This document shows, piece after piece, positions 1,145-6,229 of a stretch of DNA of 6,229 nucleotides. The stretch covers positions 1 to 6,229 of the forward strand of contig CADCOV010000182.1 of the NCBI GenBank assembly GCA_902803185.1, read 5' to 3'. The stretch is from an uncultured Eubacteriales bacterium. Lineage in GTDB: Bacteria; Bacillota; Clostridia; Peptostreptococcales; Anaerovoracaceae. Positions within the stretch are counted from its first letter, which is position 1; each line of letters opens with the position of its first letter. Position numbers and translations under genes: made by a program. Below the pieces are notes generated by a model. The model had not been told where the DNA came from. It searched no databases and was given only the letters and a program-made list of their open reading frames with translations.

Positions 1145-1501
1145 CTAATGCATGAGGAACATGGCGATCTGCCCCTTGACCACGGCAAAGGCCGGGATCA
1201 AAAACAGCACTGCGCCGATGACGTAACAGGCCTTGTCCACAGCCTCCGCCGTCCTCTCGGAGGTCAGGAGGCCCAAGGTGATGAAGGCCTTGCTGAAGGA
1301 GGTCGCCGCGTGGGTCAGGACCACAGCGAAGAACAGGAGCTCCGCCGCGATGAGGAGCAGGATCACGAGGGTCTGTCCCCCTTCCGCCGCCGCCTGCATC
1401 AGGGCGAAGGTCTTCATGTGGAGGATCAGGAGCGGGAAGATCAGCGCCGCGGAAGTCCGCTGCAGGATCGTCCTGCGGTTCTGCTTCGGGTAGAGGTCCA
1501 T
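1145..1501 (-). CDS. sdhC: Cytochrome b subunit of succinate dehydrogenase, C-terminal part (helices 3-5)
   Basis: This 118-residue reading frame begins MDLYPKQNRR and contains three hydrophobic segments at about 15-33, 44-66 and 91-115. H28 (in LILH) and H64 (in LTHAA) are candidate haem ligands. It matches in layout the last three helices of the five-helix, di-haem cytochrome b that anchors Bacillus-type succinate:quinone oxidoreductase and exchanges electrons with menaquinone. The first two helices lie in the preceding, overlapping frame, so this is probably the second half of one broken gene and not an independent protein. It could still be translated separately: the ATG at 1501 follows a purine-rich AAGGAAGGGAG. 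It ends 11 bases before the flavoprotein start, and its TAG overlaps that gene's ribosome binding site, which supports a single operon. Confidence 0.85.
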   Translation of the reverse strand: MDLYPKQNRRTILQRTSAALIFPLLILHMKTFALMQAAAEGGQTLVILLLIAAELLFFAVVLTHAATSFSKAFITLGLLTSERTAEAVDKACYVIGAVLFLIPAFAVVKGQIAMFLMH

Positions 1502-1707
1502 GCGGCTCCCTTCCTTTGGGTGAACACGATCGTCATCCCGAGGACCGCGTGAAGACAGGTCAGCACCAGGAACGGCACCGCGAACAGATTCTTCAGCACC
1601 GGGTTGTAGTAGAAGGTCAGGTAGGCGAAGGCGCTGTATCCCACGTGGAGCAGGATGCACAGGATCGCCAGCAGCGCCAGGGCCGCGTTGAGTTTCTTGA
1701 GTTTCAT
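1441..1707 (-). CDS. sdhC: Cytochrome b subunit of succinate dehydrogenase, N-terminal part (helices 1-2), frameshifted tail
   Basis: An 88-residue frame starts MKLKKLNAAL, with hydrophobic helices at about 7-25 and 42-62. H21 (LLHVG) and H53 (CLHAV) are the other two candidate haem ligands. The motif AYLTFYYNPVLK fits the N-terminus of Bacillus/Clostridia-type SdhC anchors. After about residue 67 the frame becomes arginine- and serine-rich (TSTRSRTAGR) and stops, which is not membrane protein sequence; the proper continuation is in the other frame. Joined, the two halves give roughly 185 residues, five helices and four histidines, the usual form of this subunit. AAGGA lies 7 bases upstream of the ATG. 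The gene begins 33 bases after the stop of the cysteine-tailed membrane protein, with no terminator between them. Confidence 0.85.
   Translation of the reverse strand: MKLKKLNAALALLAILCILLHVGYSAFAYLTFYYNPVLKNLFAVPFLVLTCLHAVLGMTIVFTQRKGAAWTSTRSRTAGRSCSGLPRR
1505..1520 (-). other. Probable one-base frameshift within the cytochrome b gene
   Basis: Adding one G to the GGG run (C run at 1508-1510 on the plus strand) changes the frame-1 reading QRKGAAWTST into QRKGSRMDLYPKQN and joins both halves of SdhC in one frame. No canonical X XXY YYZ slippery heptamer is visible in the correct frame, so programmed -1 frameshifting is not obvious. A sequencing or assembly error, a real mutation, or re-initiation at the ATG at 1501 remain possible. 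Confidence 0.65.
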
Positions 1708-1740: not shown

Positions 1741-3036
1741 TTATTCCTGTCGGCTCTCCACCCGGATCCGGCCTTCGTGCAGCTTCTCCTTGAAGAAGTC
1801 TTTGACCGAGCAGCCGGCCCGCCCGGAGGACGCGCAGGCACAGGCGCAGGCGCAGGAGGACACGCAGGCGCAGGCACAGGAGGACGCGCAGGAAGACGCG
1901 CAGGAAGAACGGTGGGAAGAACCGCCGCTTCGGTGGCTGCTGCCGCCGGAGTGCCGGGAGCCGCCGGAGGACCGCACCGGCACGTTGATCACGTTGACGT
2001 GGATGTAGGTGTTCGGGGAATCCCCGTACCGATAGGTGCCCTTTCTCCTGTATTTCTCCGGTTCGTTGACCTGGCTCTCCTCCAGGACCTCTTTGCTCTT
2101 GATCATGCTCCTGCCGCAGTACTCGCAGTTGTCCTTGCCCTCCACACGGCCGGCGCCGCAGCTCGGGCAGTGATCGTAGTACTCGATCTTGGTGCGGATG
2201 ATCTTCTTCCCCATCGTCTGGCTCGAGCCGAAGCCCGCGCCCCGGGCGATCCAGCGGATGAACAGGACGACCAGGACGATCGGGGCCACGAAGACGCACA
2301 GCACCGCCGCGATGCCGATCAGGCCGAAGACGATATCGATGGGATCGAACCCGTCGTCATAGTCGTAGTCGTAATCGTCACCGCCGTCCGGCACGAACCC
2401 CTTGGAGCCCTCCTGCCGGTCCTCGGAGAAGGCGAAGGCGTCGTTCGGATAGGTCACGCCGACGGTGTACCGATCCCCCGCCGAAAGGGAGGTCTCAAAG
2501 ACCAGATACCCGTCCTCCGTATAGCAGTCCGGCTGCCAGGCGCCGGCGTTCTCCCCGTTCCAGCGGATGGTGAGCTCATCCACGTCCATCCCGTCGAACC
2601 AGGCCGGCGTGAAGGAATAGACCGTCTCGCCCGCCGTGAATTTGTCGATCTGGTACATGTGATCCTGGGTCATGGAAAACTCCAGGCTCACCGTCTCCCC
2701 CTCCCCGTACGGCCGGTCCAGATAGATGGAGAGGGAATCGCCCTCGTCGTCGATGTAGTCGATGGTGTCGGTCAGCGGCGTGATGTCCGTGTGGTATTGG
2801 TTCGGCACGCCCAGGTCGATCCACTCCAGCTCGCCGATCGAATCATCGAGCACCAGCCAGTCGATGTGGTAGGTCATGTCCAAAGATGCGTCCTCGTTCA
2901 CGTCCACCGTGATGGTGAAGTCCAGGATCTCATCCGTCGCTTCCGCGGCCACCGGGACCGCTGAAGCCAGCAGGAGGATCAGACAGACCGCCGCGATCAA
3001 AACCAGTCTCGCGGATCTTCTTACACTTCTGTTCAT
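1741..3036 (-). CDS. Signal-peptide membrane protein with cytoplasmic zinc ribbon and Cys-rich (Cys-Ala) tail
   Basis: A 431-residue protein. In order: a signal peptide (1-31, basic start, hydrophobic LVLIAAVCLILLL, AAEA-type cleavage region); an acidic beta-rich extracellular domain (about 34-200); a DYDYDYDD acidic stretch; one transmembrane helix (about 234-261) followed by positive residues, which puts the C-terminus in the cytoplasm; a zinc ribbon (C290-x2-C293-x10-C304-x2-C307); a linker with GGSSHRS-like repeats (356-378); and a tail with cysteines at 379, 383, 387, 389, 391, 395, 397, 399, 401 and 409, ending GRAGCSVKDFF. From memory, similar extracellular domains and CACACA...GRAGCS tails occur in other Clostridia as uncharacterised proteins; I know of no assigned function. 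The start at 3036 is set by AAGGAGG 8 bases upstream and the signal peptide right after it; a longer open frame upstream belongs to another gene. Its start codon overlaps the stop codon of the radical SAM gene, so the tail is a plausible substrate of that enzyme. Metal binding by the tail is an alternative. Confidence 0.88.
   Translation of the reverse strand: MNRSVRRSARLVLIAAVCLILLLASAVPVAAEATDEILDFTITVDVNEDASLDMTYHIDWLVLDDSIGELEWIDLGVPNQYHTDITPLTDTIDYIDDEGDSLSIYLDRPYGEGETVSLEFSMTQDHMYQIDKFTAGETVYSFTPAWFDGMDVDELTIRWNGENAGAWQPDCYTEDGYLVFETSLSAGDRYTVGVTYPNDAFAFSEDRQEGSKGFVPDGGDDYDYDYDDGFDPIDIVFGLIGIAAVLCVFVAPIVLVVLFIRWIARGAGFGSSQTMGKKIIRTKIEYYDHCPSCGAGRVEGKDNCEYCGRSMIKSKEVLEESQVNEPEKYRRKGTYRYGDSPNTYIHVNVINVPVRSSGGSRHSGGSSHRSGGSSHRSSCASSCASSCACACVSSCACACACASSGRAGCSVKDFFKEKLHEGRIRVESRQE
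1807..1971 (-). repeat. Low-complexity coding repeat: Ser/His/Arg linker and Cys-Ala tail
   Basis: The plus strand shows a run of near-identical GCAGGC, GCACAG and GCAGGA hexamers between about 1828 and 1902, which encode Cys-Ala and Ser-Ser-Cys steps on the minus strand. CACAC lies at 1864-1878 and CACACAC at 1834-1854. The stretch at 1900-1971 encodes GGSSHRS-like units. The repeat is in frame and within one gene, so it is a protein repeat and not an intergenic element. Such repeats can change length by slippage. Confidence 0.8.
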
Positions 3037-4433
3037 CAGCAGGACCTCCTTAATGGGCATTCTCCAGTGAGATCGGCGGAATAGTTTCTGCGCTCCGTGC
3101 AGGCCCGGCTTTCCCAGATCCCCTGCCAGTCGTCCCGCAGCATGTTGCCCAGCGGCTGATCCGACAGCCAGCTCTGGCAAGGCACCACGTTCCCGCCCGG
3201 CGTGATGGCCATGTTCGACAGGCACGCGCCGCAGGAAGGAGACGCGATGTTCAGTTCATCGAACACCTCCTGGGCGATCCAGCCCGGCGAGGTGAAGGCG
3301 ATCTCCATGCCGTTCTCGTGGCAGAAGGCGACGGCGTCCCTGAGGATCTCCTCCAGCTCTTCGCCGGTCAGCTGCAGCCGCTCCGCGTCCTCGCTCACGG
3401 CGTTCCCCGTCAGGATCATGCCGGAGCAGGTCACGTAGGCCACGCCCTTCTCCTTCAGGAAGGCGAGGGTCTTCCGATAGTCCCGGTTCAGGGTGCACAG
3501 CGGCGTGTTGATGCTGACCGAGAGACCTTCTTTGACGGCGTTCTCGATGCCCGCCACCGTGTTGTCGAACTGCGCAGCTCCCACCAGCAGGTTGTGGACC
3601 GCCGGATCGCAGGAGTAGAAGGTGATCTGCACGCTGTCCAGCTCCGCCTCGTGGAGCTTCCGGCAGTAGTCCTCCGTCAGCTTGATGCCGTTGGTGTTCA
3701 GCCGGGAGATGAACCAGCGGGCGTGGCGGATCAGCTCGAAGAGATCCTCCCGCATGGTCGGCTCCCCGCCGGTAAAGGTGACCTGCGGGATCCCCACCGC
3801 CCGGCAGCGGTCCAGGATCGCCTTCCACTCCTCCGTGGAAAGCTCCTCTTCCTCCGCGTTCGGCTGTCCCGCCGCGTAGCAGTGGACGCACTTCTGATTG
3901 CAGTGCCACTTCCCGCCCTTCGTCATGGCGCTCACCATCACGTCCATGCGGTGCGGGGCGGACATGTATTCCTCGTAGTCCCCGATGCTCATGTAGTGCA
4001 CGTCTGTGGTGACCGGCTCCCGGTAGGCGATCTGGCGGATCGTGGTGTAGATGGTCTCGAGGTCAGCGGCGATGCGCTTGCGGGAGAACACAGGGATGAT
4101 GCCCTTTACGTTCTCCACTGTCCGGTCCAGGATGCCCCGGATCTCCCCTTCTCCGATCTCCTTCCCGTCGAACCGGTTGGTCTCCCGGATCAGCTCCGCG
4201 AGCATGACCGCCCAGACAAAGCTCACCGGGACGATGTCCGTGCCGTTGATGATGGCGATGCTCGGGTTCAGCGCGTCCTCCTCCGCCTTCGGCGGGATGA
4301 GATGGATGCGCACCGCCCCCGGTCCGTCCGGATTCAATGTCGTGTGCAGGACCTCGCTAAAGGTCGTGTCCATATACGCCCGGATCCTCTGCACGGTCCG
4401 GGTCTTTCGGAATATCTTTGGTACAGGTATCAT
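3036..4433 (-). CDS. Radical SAM enzyme with C-terminal SPASM-like cysteine region, putative peptide/protein maturase
   Basis: A 465-residue protein. C178-x3-C182-x2-C185 (CNQKCVHC) is the radical SAM motif that binds the SAM-cleaving 4Fe-4S cluster. FTGGEP (220-225) is the SAM-contacting motif, and the strand-helix pattern expected of the partial TIM barrel follows (RLNTNG, VQITFYS, VSINTPL). The C-terminus carries C401-x2-C404-x14-C419 within AITPGGNVVPC, then PLGNMLRDDWQGIWES and C445, C459 and C465, typical of SPASM/twitch auxiliary-cluster domains, though with fewer cysteines than a full SPASM set. Residues 1-155 form a domain I do not recognise; a role in substrate recognition is only a guess. 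Such enzymes usually install thioether or carbon-carbon links in ribosomal peptides or activate protein radicals. The start at 4433 has AGGAGG 7 bases upstream. TGA overlaps the ATG of the cysteine-tailed membrane protein, its likely partner. The exact reaction is unknown. Confidence 0.9.
   Translation of the reverse strand: MIPVPKIFRKTRTVQRIRAYMDTTFSEVLHTTLNPDGPGAVRIHLIPPKAEEDALNPSIAIINGTDIVPVSFVWAVMLAELIRETNRFDGKEIGEGEIRGILDRTVENVKGIIPVFSRKRIAADLETIYTTIRQIAYREPVTTDVHYMSIGDYEEYMSAPHRMDVMVSAMTKGGKWHCNQKCVHCYAAGQPNAEEEELSTEEWKAILDRCRAVGIPQVTFTGGEPTMREDLFELIRHARWFISRLNTNGIKLTEDYCRKLHEAELDSVQITFYSCDPAVHNLLVGAAQFDNTVAGIENAVKEGLSVSINTPLCTLNRDYRKTLAFLKEKGVAYVTCSGMILTGNAVSEDAERLQLTGEELEEILRDAVAFCHENGMEIAFTSPGWIAQEVFDELNIASPSCGACLSNMAITPGGNVVPCQSWLSDQPLGNMLRDDWQGIWESRACTERRNYSADLTGECPLRRSC
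3045..3051 (-). promoter_or_regulatory. Ribosome binding site inside the radical SAM gene
   Basis: AAGGAGG, near-perfectly complementary to the 16S rRNA 3' end, sits within the last codons of the radical SAM gene (reading LRRS) and 8 bases before the ATG at 3036. Together with the TGATG stop/start overlap it fixes the start of the membrane protein and predicts translational coupling. Confidence 0.85.
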
Positions 4434-4930: not shown

Positions 4931-5602
4931 TTACCCGAACAGGATCGGCACGAGGAAGAACCCGATCATATTGCTCAGGAAATGCGGGATAAAGCTGATC
5001 AGGCAGTTTCCGGTCTTGCGGTACAGGATCGCAAAAAGAATCGCGTCGATAAAGATACCGCCAAGATCCCACGCAACGACCCCCGCAGGGCCTGCGGCAT
5101 AGTGCGCTGCGGCAAAGAGTGCAGCTCCGGCAATTGCCACCGGCCAGAACGAAAAGCGCTTCATACCCTTCCCCACAAAGAACGCGCGGAATTCGATCTC
5201 TTCACCGAGAACGGAAGCGACCTGGGTCAGCAGCAGCATCGGAAGCTGGTCGAGACCCGGCACATCGAGTCGGCCCAGTACGTGGTCTATGTAGGCGCTG
5301 CCGAACACCGCCTTGCTCAGAAGCATTTCGACAGGGGACAAAACGAGCATGAAAAGGATCAGGGGGATGACCCACCGCTTCTTCAGATCCGAAAAGAAAC
5401 GTTTGAAACTGAGTCCGGATTCGGCATCGGGCGTTTTCTCAATGCCCTCGATGATGAAGAAACACGCCAGACCGGCGGCATGGATCGCTGCGGCGGCAAT
5501 CACGGAGGATGTCGCTGCTTTGAAAGCGACCGCGACGATCATAACAGCCATGCCGATGAGTGTAATGATCTTGACCTTGTCATTTTTCTTAGAATCAACC
5601 AT
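4931..5602 (-). CDS. CPBP family intramembrane glutamic endopeptidase (CAAX/Abi type)
   Basis: A 223-residue multi-pass membrane protein with the three conserved motifs of the family: E134-E135-x3-R139 (EEIEFR), F163-x3-H167 (FAAAH) and H207-x3-N211 (HFLSN), each in or beside a predicted helix. These residues form the catalytic site of the Rce1-like glutamate proteases. About six to seven hydrophobic segments are visible (about 11-30, 34-52, 78-97, 119-133, 154-168, 182-195, 201-221). Bacterial members are linked to processing or immunity of peptides and to other roles; the substrate here is unknown. The start at 5602 is supported by AAGGAG 8 bases upstream, which overlaps the stop codon of the preceding flavodoxin-fold gene, so the two are co-transcribed and probably coupled. 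Length and motifs look intact. Confidence 0.9.
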   Translation of the reverse strand: MVDSKKNDKVKIITLIGMAVMIVAVAFKAATSSVIAAAAIHAAGLACFFIIEGIEKTPDAESGLSFKRFFSDLKKRWVIPLILFMLVLSPVEMLLSKAVFGSAYIDHVLGRLDVPGLDQLPMLLLTQVASVLGEEIEFRAFFVGKGMKRFSFWPVAIAGAALFAAAHYAAGPAGVVAWDLGGIFIDAILFAILYRKTGNCLISFIPHFLSNMIGFFLVPILFG

Positions 5603-5614
5603 AACTCCAACTCC

Positions 5615-6229
5615 TTATTCTTTCTTTGCCAGCCATCCGCGGAAGATGCCGCCCTGCAGCAAAGAGATGATCGTGAAAAAAATGTCGGCGAACAGGATGA
5701 AGACGAAAGAAGGGATCAGGATACGGGTGTATCTCTTGCCGAAAGCCGTTCCCCTCACGATCGCCCTGCCCATGCCGAAGAGGTAACACAGCACGCCCAA
5801 GTTAAAATATAACAGCAGCGCTGCACTTTCAGCGAAATTGAGCCAGGCGTCCTTCGGGAAAAAGTTGCCGGTATTGACCGCGCTCAGCACGGTATTTACA
5901 ACCAACAGCGCGATCTCCACGAAGAAGAGGATGCGGGTCACGTTCAGCATGACGCCGCCGCCGATCCCCACGCCGCCGCTCCAGGCAAGGCCTGTCCGCG
6001 CGCAGAAGTTCTCAAACACCTGCATCAGCGGTTCGTTTTGCTTCCCTTCGATGAAGCCGTTGTTTGCGACACAGTAAACATTGATCTTCAGGCCGTTTTC
6101 GCGGCAGAAGGCCTCCATTTCCTCCATGAAGCGGAGCACGTGAGACGGAACGCCGTCCACATAGAGCGGCAAGCCGAACACCACCGCCTGCGCGTCCCGA
6201 AGCTGTTCCAGAATGCGGGCGTGGTCGGC
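5615..6229 (-). CDS. Flavodoxin-fold NAD(P)H/FMN-dependent oxidoreductase with C-terminal membrane helices, 5' end outside window
   Basis: The visible 204 residues lack the N-terminus, where the phosphate-binding loop of the FMN site should be. AVVFGLPLYVDGVPSHVLRFME (about 15-36) is the loop after the third strand that holds the flavin ring in NADPH-dependent FMN reductase-like proteins. VYCVANNGFIEG (51-62) and the glycine-rich GGVGIGGGV (85-93) fit the later strands of the fold. The rest is membrane sequence with helices at about 97-117, 132-153 and 169-195, ending GWLAKKE. The protein is therefore a membrane-tethered redox protein; substrate and partner are not visible. A GTG at 6184 could be read as a start, but the open frame and the fold both continue upstream to the window edge, so it is treated as truncated. 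The CPBP protease gene begins 12 bases after its stop. Confidence 0.8.
   Translation of the reverse strand, partial: ADHARILEQLRDAQAVVFGLPLYVDGVPSHVLRFMEEMEAFCRENGLKINVYCVANNGFIEGKQNEPLMQVFENFCARTGLAWSGGVGIGGGVMLNVTRILFFVEIALLVVNTVLSAVNTGNFFPKDAWLNFAESAALLLYFNLGVLCYLFGMGRAIVRGTAFGKRYTRILIPSFVFILFADIFFTIISLLQGGIFRGWLAKKE

Follow-up and report, generated by a model that had tools for sequence, protein, structure and literature searches.

The two-gene unit

The stretch of DNA studied here (the window) comprises 6,229 nucleotides of contig CADCOV010000182.1 from an uncultured Eubacteriales bacterium of the family Anaerovoracaceae, whose genome assembly (GCA_902803185.1; 1.73 Mb in 304 contigs) is 79% complete. 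Its minus strand carries an open reading frame (ORF) of 465 amino acids for a radical S-adenosylmethionine (SAM)/SPASM enzyme (positions 3036-4433), followed by an ORF of 431 amino acids (1741-3036, with the TAA stop codon at 1741-1743) for a single-pass membrane protein with a cysteine-rich tail, here called the partner. Across the genomes that we compared, either both genes occur, nearly always side by side, or neither does, and we consider it rather probable that the enzyme modifies the Cys-Ala tail of the neighboring membrane protein, most likely by forming thioether bridges. The pair, including the TGATG stop/start overlap between the two genes (3034-3038, minus strand), had been recognized in a first-pass annotation made from the DNA sequence, and the ORF coordinates agree with it: the ATG of the partner (3036-3034) lies inside this pentamer. 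Among the 21 listed loci in which the enzyme gene comes first, 12 have an ATG at position 0 or -3 relative to the enzyme stop, and translational coupling is thus common.

The partner consists of an N-terminal hydrophobic segment (residues 11-29), an outer domain, a transmembrane helix, a zinc ribbon and a tail with ten cysteines, the layout that the same annotation had proposed. The outer part (residues 30-215; 2392-2949, minus strand) is a predicted extracellular domain with the fold of the Ost1/ribophorin I luminal domain and of the M1-peptidase N-domain, and it is conserved in its own right. The helix (residues 242-260; 2257-2313, minus strand; hydropathy 3.26) is flanked by acidic residues on its N-terminal side and by Arg and Lys on its C-terminal side. 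These charges predict an N-out, C-in orientation, and the tail is therefore predicted to reside in the cytoplasm, the same compartment as the enzyme. The zinc ribbon (CPSCG...CEYCG, residues 290-307; 2116-2169, minus strand) is confined to the longer partners and absent from the short ones; complete partners range from about 310 to 690 amino acids. No Pfam or NCBIfam family matched the window partner at E <= 0.01. A suspected resemblance to DUF2207-type membrane proteins gave no Pfam match in the window partner at E <= 0.01, in six others at E <= 0.1, or in those of loci L149 and L153 at E <= 0.05. Relatives of the partner number 1796 at E <= 0.001 among 7996 scored.

The cysteine-alanine tail

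The tail spans residues 379-409 (1810-1902, minus strand), with the core CACACACASSGRAGC, and its cysteines occupy positions 379, 383, 387, 389, 391, 395, 397, 399, 401 and 409. The ten cysteines that had been counted at first sight are thus exactly right for the window, but the number is not a fixed trait, since 6 to 11 are present among 77 tail genes picked by motif. AlphaFold assigns pLDDT values below 50 to partner residues 358-416 and 422-431, and the tail is accordingly predicted to be disordered. The segment following the core (SVKDFFKEKLHEGR...; 1744-1809, minus strand) is conserved within subfamilies and might be the segment that the enzyme recognizes.

The rows of our tail alignment and the locus rows of a further alignment had been picked by the tail motif, so that their invariant tail columns are not independent evidence. 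Tail conservation was counted on partners that were chosen from the loci of both genome scans by the outer-domain profile only, a selection blind to the tail. This yielded 72 distinct partners, four of which reach a contig end; the 68 complete ones all end in the tail. The pattern (CA)4-xx-GRAGC is exact in 66 of these 68 and carries one substitution in the other two (L042 and L062). In pairwise comparisons of the 16-residue core, which include close relatives, codon positions 1 and 2 differ in 11% and position 3 in 57% of cases; in its four Ala columns the corresponding values are 0.7 and 61%. The tail core is under selection at the level of the protein.

The hexamer repeat that encodes the tail seems to be troublesome for sequencing or assembly, and databases may hence under-count intact tails. 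In three deposited partners (P0050, P0053 and P0055) the tail appears to be translated out of frame, and several contigs (L020, L029 and L107/L108) break off at the tail or close to it.

Co-occurrence of enzyme and tail

A scan of genome contigs with the window enzyme recovered 66 loci (48-80% identity), and the outer-domain profile alone found a partner ORF in 65 of them. In the exception, L055 (6001-7168), a truncated enzyme runs into just the tail end of the partner, which reflects either a deletion or an assembly chimera. The tail motif was present on the enzyme strand in 62 loci; in the other four (L015, L020, L029 and L030) the partner frame remains open up to the contig end, which in L029 falls within the Cys repeats. 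A second collection of 197 genomes of the family contributed 11 matches including the window, and partner and tail were found in all ten others; four of these ten loci are the same DNA as loci of the 66-locus scan, i.e., the collections overlap.

At the class level, we searched 391 genomes with profiles for the enzyme (E <= 1e-50), the tail (E <= 0.01) and the outer domain (E <= 1e-5). The enzyme profile matched 11 genomes; the outer-domain profile matched the same 11 and no other, and the tail profile matched these 11 plus three weak cases (G421, G412 and G228; E 7.6e-5 to 0.008). We regard the latter as chance matches: none of the three genomes has an enzyme at E <= 1e-50, each match contains a stop codon, and no frame of at least 30 amino acids with CxCxC or GR(A/G)GC was found in them. 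The outer-domain match adjoins the enzyme on the same contig in 11 of 11 genomes. In G389 and G427 a break in the assembly, within the partner or ahead of it, puts the tail on a separate contig; in G510 an insertion element interrupts the partner gene and places the tail 2.8 kb away. If genomes were independent, the chance that two sets of 11 out of 391 coincide would be 1.4e-21, or 7.8e-15 when counted by genera (8 of 222); kinship makes both values too small.

A search of 61 relatives (tail, E <= 1e-5; enzyme, E <= 1e-40) gave a concordant result: both profiles matched the same eight genomes, four of which, besides that of the window, had been part of the earlier samples. Within the genus of the window, both genes are present in 4 of 13 genomes and neither in the remaining nine, four of which are 90-99% complete. 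Neither a clear tail without the enzyme nor an enzyme without the tail was found in the compared genomes. The check set beforehand, namely whether the tail is common without its radical SAM neighbor, was thus run in the 391 class genomes and the 61 relatives, and the pairing survived it.

The unit occurs in many bacteria from the gut and the rumen, among them a cultured type strain, Roseburia inulinivorans DSM 16841 (L058). Tandem pairs of tail proteins precede a single enzyme in L062 (4081-6023) and in genome G433 (L080 and L093). In L106, from G510, a partner of a third clade (3663-6568, minus strand) is split by transposase-like ORFs (4543-6264) while the enzyme frame is open, perhaps a unit in decay once its partner had been lost. 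Plasmid records contained no match to the unit, and the one matching record labeled 'Bacteriophage sp.' (L154; MT837216.1), an unverified 7.4-kb faecal scaffold with enzyme and tail protein, may be mislabeled bacterial DNA; carriage by phages or plasmids was rejected on these grounds. In IMG/VR, 16 loci gave radical SAM matches at 24-35% identity, too distant to belong to the family.

Reach of the unit across the phylum

A scan of 299 genomes of the phylum with the enzyme profile alone (E <= 1e-40) yielded 11 matches. Apart from the window enzyme itself, these are highly divergent sequences (200-332 bits, compared with 813 for the window), and each of the ten has a Cys-Ala-tailed membrane protein as its neighbor, in one case truncated by the edge of the locus. 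Tails like CACVSCACACVSCACACACAGGGGAGC occur in one group (L139-L144). In another (L145-L148) the partner gene comes first, and its extreme C-terminus reads CACACACACASSGGCT or a close variant. Full-length partners of this group (L149, L150 and L152) start with a hydrophobic segment, continue with an outer part and a single clear helix, and have about 190 further residues ahead of the tail; the outer-domain profile (E <= 1e-5) does not recognize the partners of L145-L148, L149, L150 and L152, so that their kinship with the window partner is apparent in the tail. A third group (L104 and L106) has the tail GGRVGCSERGYQVLHWL. In the alignments, KDF[FY] is conserved behind the core, ERGYQVLHWL takes its place in L104/L106, and the segment is missing from L145-L148. 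As far as these sequences tell, the Cys-Ala core is the common element and the segment after it varies by clade. In a tree of 41 chosen enzymes, which left out L142, L144 and most near-identical loci, the order of the two genes changed at least twice.

Genes for TPM-domain and LemA proteins come after the unit in one of the distant clades (L151, 7169-8466; L153, 1735-4439), and in L153 the tail protein is itself fused to a TPM domain. This LemA/TPM link hints at a role in the cell envelope. Relatives of the distant enzymes are also present in the archaeon Methanocella (P0317 and P0340; 45-46% identity to the L145 enzyme).

The enzyme

The window enzyme scores above the gathering thresholds of Pfam Radical_SAM (PF04055; 79.6 bits, cut-off 29.5) and SPASM (PF13186; 29.0 bits, cut-off 21.5), so that its early classification as a radical SAM/SPASM enzyme is correct. 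The cluster motif CNQKCVHC occupies residues 178-185 (3879-3902, minus strand), and its three cysteines (C178, C182 and C185) are invariant in 25 aligned enzymes. In the same alignment, C401, C419 and C459 of the SPASM/twitch region (3057-3233, minus strand) are invariant, C404 and C445 almost so. Enzymes of the window clade have fewer late SPASM cysteines than those of the distant clades, which retain CxxC...CGG.C, and the auxiliary cluster of the window clade thus seems to be reduced.

Residues 29-136 (4026-4349, minus strand) form strands followed by helices in the AlphaFold model, a succession reminiscent of the recognition element (RRE) of enzymes that mature ribosomally synthesized and post-translationally modified peptides (RiPPs). 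Structural alignments with SuiB (model residues 31-462) and SkfB (41-456) reach into this region, although the tool flags the parts outside residues 146-465 as barely tested, and a PqqD domain (PF05402) was detected at residues 50-99 of the relative P0355. We regard this region as a likely, if tentative, RRE. SkfB and SuiB are the best full-length structural matches of the enzyme, and SkfB is also its best sequence match in the PDB; judged from the predicted model, the fold is that of RiPP maturases. The window enzyme does not reach the curated cut-off of any NCBIfam model among the best 25 of 57, and the named radical SAM equivalogs (NirJ2, PqqE, SkfB, HxsC, mycofactocin and others) all score far under their cut-offs among the best 25 families per protein. 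The Roseburia enzyme has 6761 relatives at E <= 1e-40, an upper figure that possibly includes neighbors outside the pair. P0201 (625 amino acids; 15 contigs) is a membrane-tethered version of the enzyme, with an N-terminally fused VanZ membrane domain.

Genes surrounding the unit

All ORFs of at least 70 amino acids in 70 loci were clustered; because they were chosen by length, some genuine genes on G+C-rich contigs lost their place to antisense ORFs, which lowered the count for the partner. Only the enzyme (66 loci) and the partner (61 loci) recur broadly, the next cluster, with 7, resembling antisense frames. No recurrent transporter, protease or small peptide, and no short leader-core precursor, was found near the unit within this size range (shorter ORFs were not clustered); the partner itself is a membrane protein. 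An MNIO (DUF692) enzyme was not found beside the partner, whose neighbor is a radical SAM protein, and no further cluster occurs in more than 7 of the 70 loci.

In the window, the unit is followed on the minus strand by a gene for a flavoprotein resembling succinate dehydrogenase/fumarate reductase (3-1133), and two small hydrophobic ORFs (1145-1504 and 1441-1707, minus strand) could encode its membrane anchor. Upstream, also on the minus strand, are genes for a CPBP (Rce1-like) intramembrane protease (4931-5602) and for a weakly FMN-reductase-like membrane protein (5615-6229). The latter is not a recurrent neighbor in the 70 loci. The protease was considered as a processing partner and discarded, its cluster not being among those found in at least 3 of the 70 loci.

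A proposed reaction and its alternatives

We envisage that the disordered tail reaches the cytoplasmic enzyme while the single helix anchors the protein, and that the enzyme binds the tail or the adjoining segment, possibly through its RRE-like domain, a kind of domain that holds the substrates in RiPP maturases. Acceptor residues (Ala, Gly, Ser or the conserved Arg) would then lose a hydrogen atom to the enzyme, and Cys sulfurs would close short rings, leaving a stiff, sulfur-bridged tail. The protein would remain anchored in the membrane with its outer domain outside and the modified tail inside, where it might serve in sensing, in metal or redox handling, or as a scaffold in an envelope complex. 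Thioether bridges are the likeliest chemistry because of the spacing of the cysteines, the SkfB-like enzyme and the known acceptors. The tail offers C-A-S-S and C-A-G-G-G-R steps, and Ala and Arg act as acceptors in RumC1 and Ser in streptosactin (PMC8172795; for RumC also PMC6779426); a look for acceptor residues in PMC8188230 gave no match.

It is possible, if unlikely, that the enzyme modifies the tail without cross-linking it, for instance by converting every second residue, the alanines, to the D form or by oxidizing cysteines, as radical SAM epimerases and anSME-type enzymes do. SkfB and SuiB match the enzyme as well as anSME does and over a longer stretch (338-357 versus 277-284 residues), whereas the match to EpeE is much weaker. 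Moreover, the spacer and the GR(A/V)GC element do not alternate, yet cysteine is retained there.

Still less probable in our assessment is a tail that acts as a metal- or Fe-S-binding strand, with the enzyme serving electron supply, cluster delivery or some other target. The CxCxCxC pattern, together with nearby His-rich stretches (HHSSC in many relatives), is metallothionein-like, and the window partner already possesses a zinc ribbon. A tail that only binds metal would, however, need no enzyme in every genome; the likely RRE favors a peptide as substrate, and the 70 loci offer no other recurrent gene or substrate candidate.

We think it very improbable that the partner serves as an unusually large RiPP precursor, with the modified tail being cleaved off afterwards and released as a peptide. 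The position of the tail at or near the C-terminus, like that of a core peptide, and the CPBP-type protease gene upstream of the unit would fit such a scheme, but beyond common genes no protease or transporter cluster occurs in at least 3 of the 70 loci, and the outer domain is conserved in its own right. Furthermore, the core is the last part of the protein in some relatives, and in one a fused TPM domain follows. Finally, we give almost no credence to the already disfavored notion that the pairing reflects mere shared ancestry of two neighboring genes: co-inheritance is expected in close relatives, but the pair is jointly present or absent within one genus and outlasts at least two changes in gene order and a very deep divergence of the enzymes.

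Against a thioether-forming enzyme that acts on the tail stand the following points. The modification is predicted, from sequence and models, and a tail with alternating cysteines could merely bind metal. The zinc ribbon and the outer domain could be targets of the enzyme as well, and the segment behind the core is missing or replaced in some clades. Concerning the enzyme, the window clade has the reduced set of SPASM cysteines, with further ones present in the distant clades. The fold match suits thioether formation (SkfB, CteB), C-C bond formation (SuiB), Cys/Ser oxidation (anSME) and the nucleotide chemistry of viperin alike. The RRE derives from a predicted model, in a region barely tested by fold comparison, and from the Pfam match of one relative; the Pfam scan gave no PqqD match in the window enzyme itself. 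As to the pairing, co-inheritance accounts for part of the co-occurrence among close relatives, and the genome samples overlap. The outer-domain profile was built with rows from two of the 11 class-level genomes (G501 and G427) and is not blind for them, and the converse case, a tail without the enzyme, was covered at the class level and among the relatives, the scan of the phylum having used the enzyme profile alone. Of the reading put forward in the first-pass annotation, the predicted cytoplasmic location of the tail, the RiPP-maturase fold and the co-occurrence of enzyme and tail stand; that the tail is the substrate and that it receives thioethers is still what we infer.

Comparison with known systems

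Sactipeptide (SkfB, AlbA and RumMC) and ranthipeptide (CteB and PapB) synthases act on short leader-core peptides, commonly encoded together with export or protease genes. They share with the unit described here a radical SAM enzyme with a SPASM/twitch region, an N-terminal RRE (likely in our case) and a Cys-rich substrate (proposed in our case), but the partner is a membrane protein of more than 300 residues with no recurrent export or protease genes. SuiB, the streptide Lys-Trp cyclase, forms a C-C bond in a short peptide that has no Cys tail. ACGX-repeat and CXXX-repeat systems likewise combine a radical SAM/SPASM enzyme with regularly spaced substrate cysteines, and their substrates are small peptides; the distant-clade enzyme L145 scores 63.7 bits against TIGR04340 (ACGX; cut-off 400). 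The His-Xaa-Ser system, which also pairs a radical SAM enzyme with a repetitive substrate, has a different repeat, and the window enzyme reaches 55.3 bits against its model TIGR03977 (cut-off 267.9).

A description of the enzyme/tail pair was not found in our literature search, which had preprint servers and most subscription papers outside its reach. The view that no described system has this design may hold for the pair itself but is too wide as it stands: a similar idea has been put forward for TIGR04222 proteins and MNIO enzymes (PMC12452194; Antoine et al., 2025), the nearest published parallel. There, TIGR04222 membrane proteins with Cys-containing low-complexity C-termini, found mostly in Actinomycetota, are encoded beside MNIO enzymes, and a subset is proposed as substrates. 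Both systems have a large membrane protein whose C-terminus is disordered, of low complexity and equipped with Cys, and a RiPP-type enzyme encoded next to it. They differ in that MNIO enzymes are an unrelated class, the TIGR04222 tail is predicted to be periplasmic instead of cytoplasmic and is Ser/Gly-rich with scattered cysteines instead of (Cys-Ala)n-GRAGC, and TIGR04222 proteins have several membrane segments whereas the window partner has one. The TIGR04222/MNIO association is also loose (MNIO is missing from 490 of the 1372 genomes that have TIGR04222), in contrast to the strict pairing reported here. None of the 11 partner proteins that we scanned matches TIGR04222.

Whether these units amount to a phylum-wide, membrane-anchored RiPP-type class, in which a full-size single-pass protein, neither cleaved nor exported at any stage, bears a thioether-bridged cytoplasmic (Cys-Ala)n tail, and which arose in parallel to MNIO/TIGR04222, is in our judgment evenly balanced.

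Implications

RiPP enzymes are known for acting on small secreted or cofactor peptides. Enzyme-modified Cys-rich substrates are thus of an already known kind, and what is new here, set against TIGR04222/MNIO, is the enzyme class, the motif and the predicted side of the membrane. The compact two-gene pair is available in a cultured type strain, and the expected change is directly measurable as a loss of 2 Da per bridge and of free thiols. If the proposal is true, it would give a name to large sets of proteins (1796 relatives of the partner and up to 6761 of the Roseburia enzyme), and the product would be a chemically altered protein kept in the membrane, as opposed to a small peptide released by cleavage and secreted. 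Should the enzyme indeed act on the tail, radical thioether chemistry would also finish membrane proteins of ordinary size in rumen and human gut bacteria.

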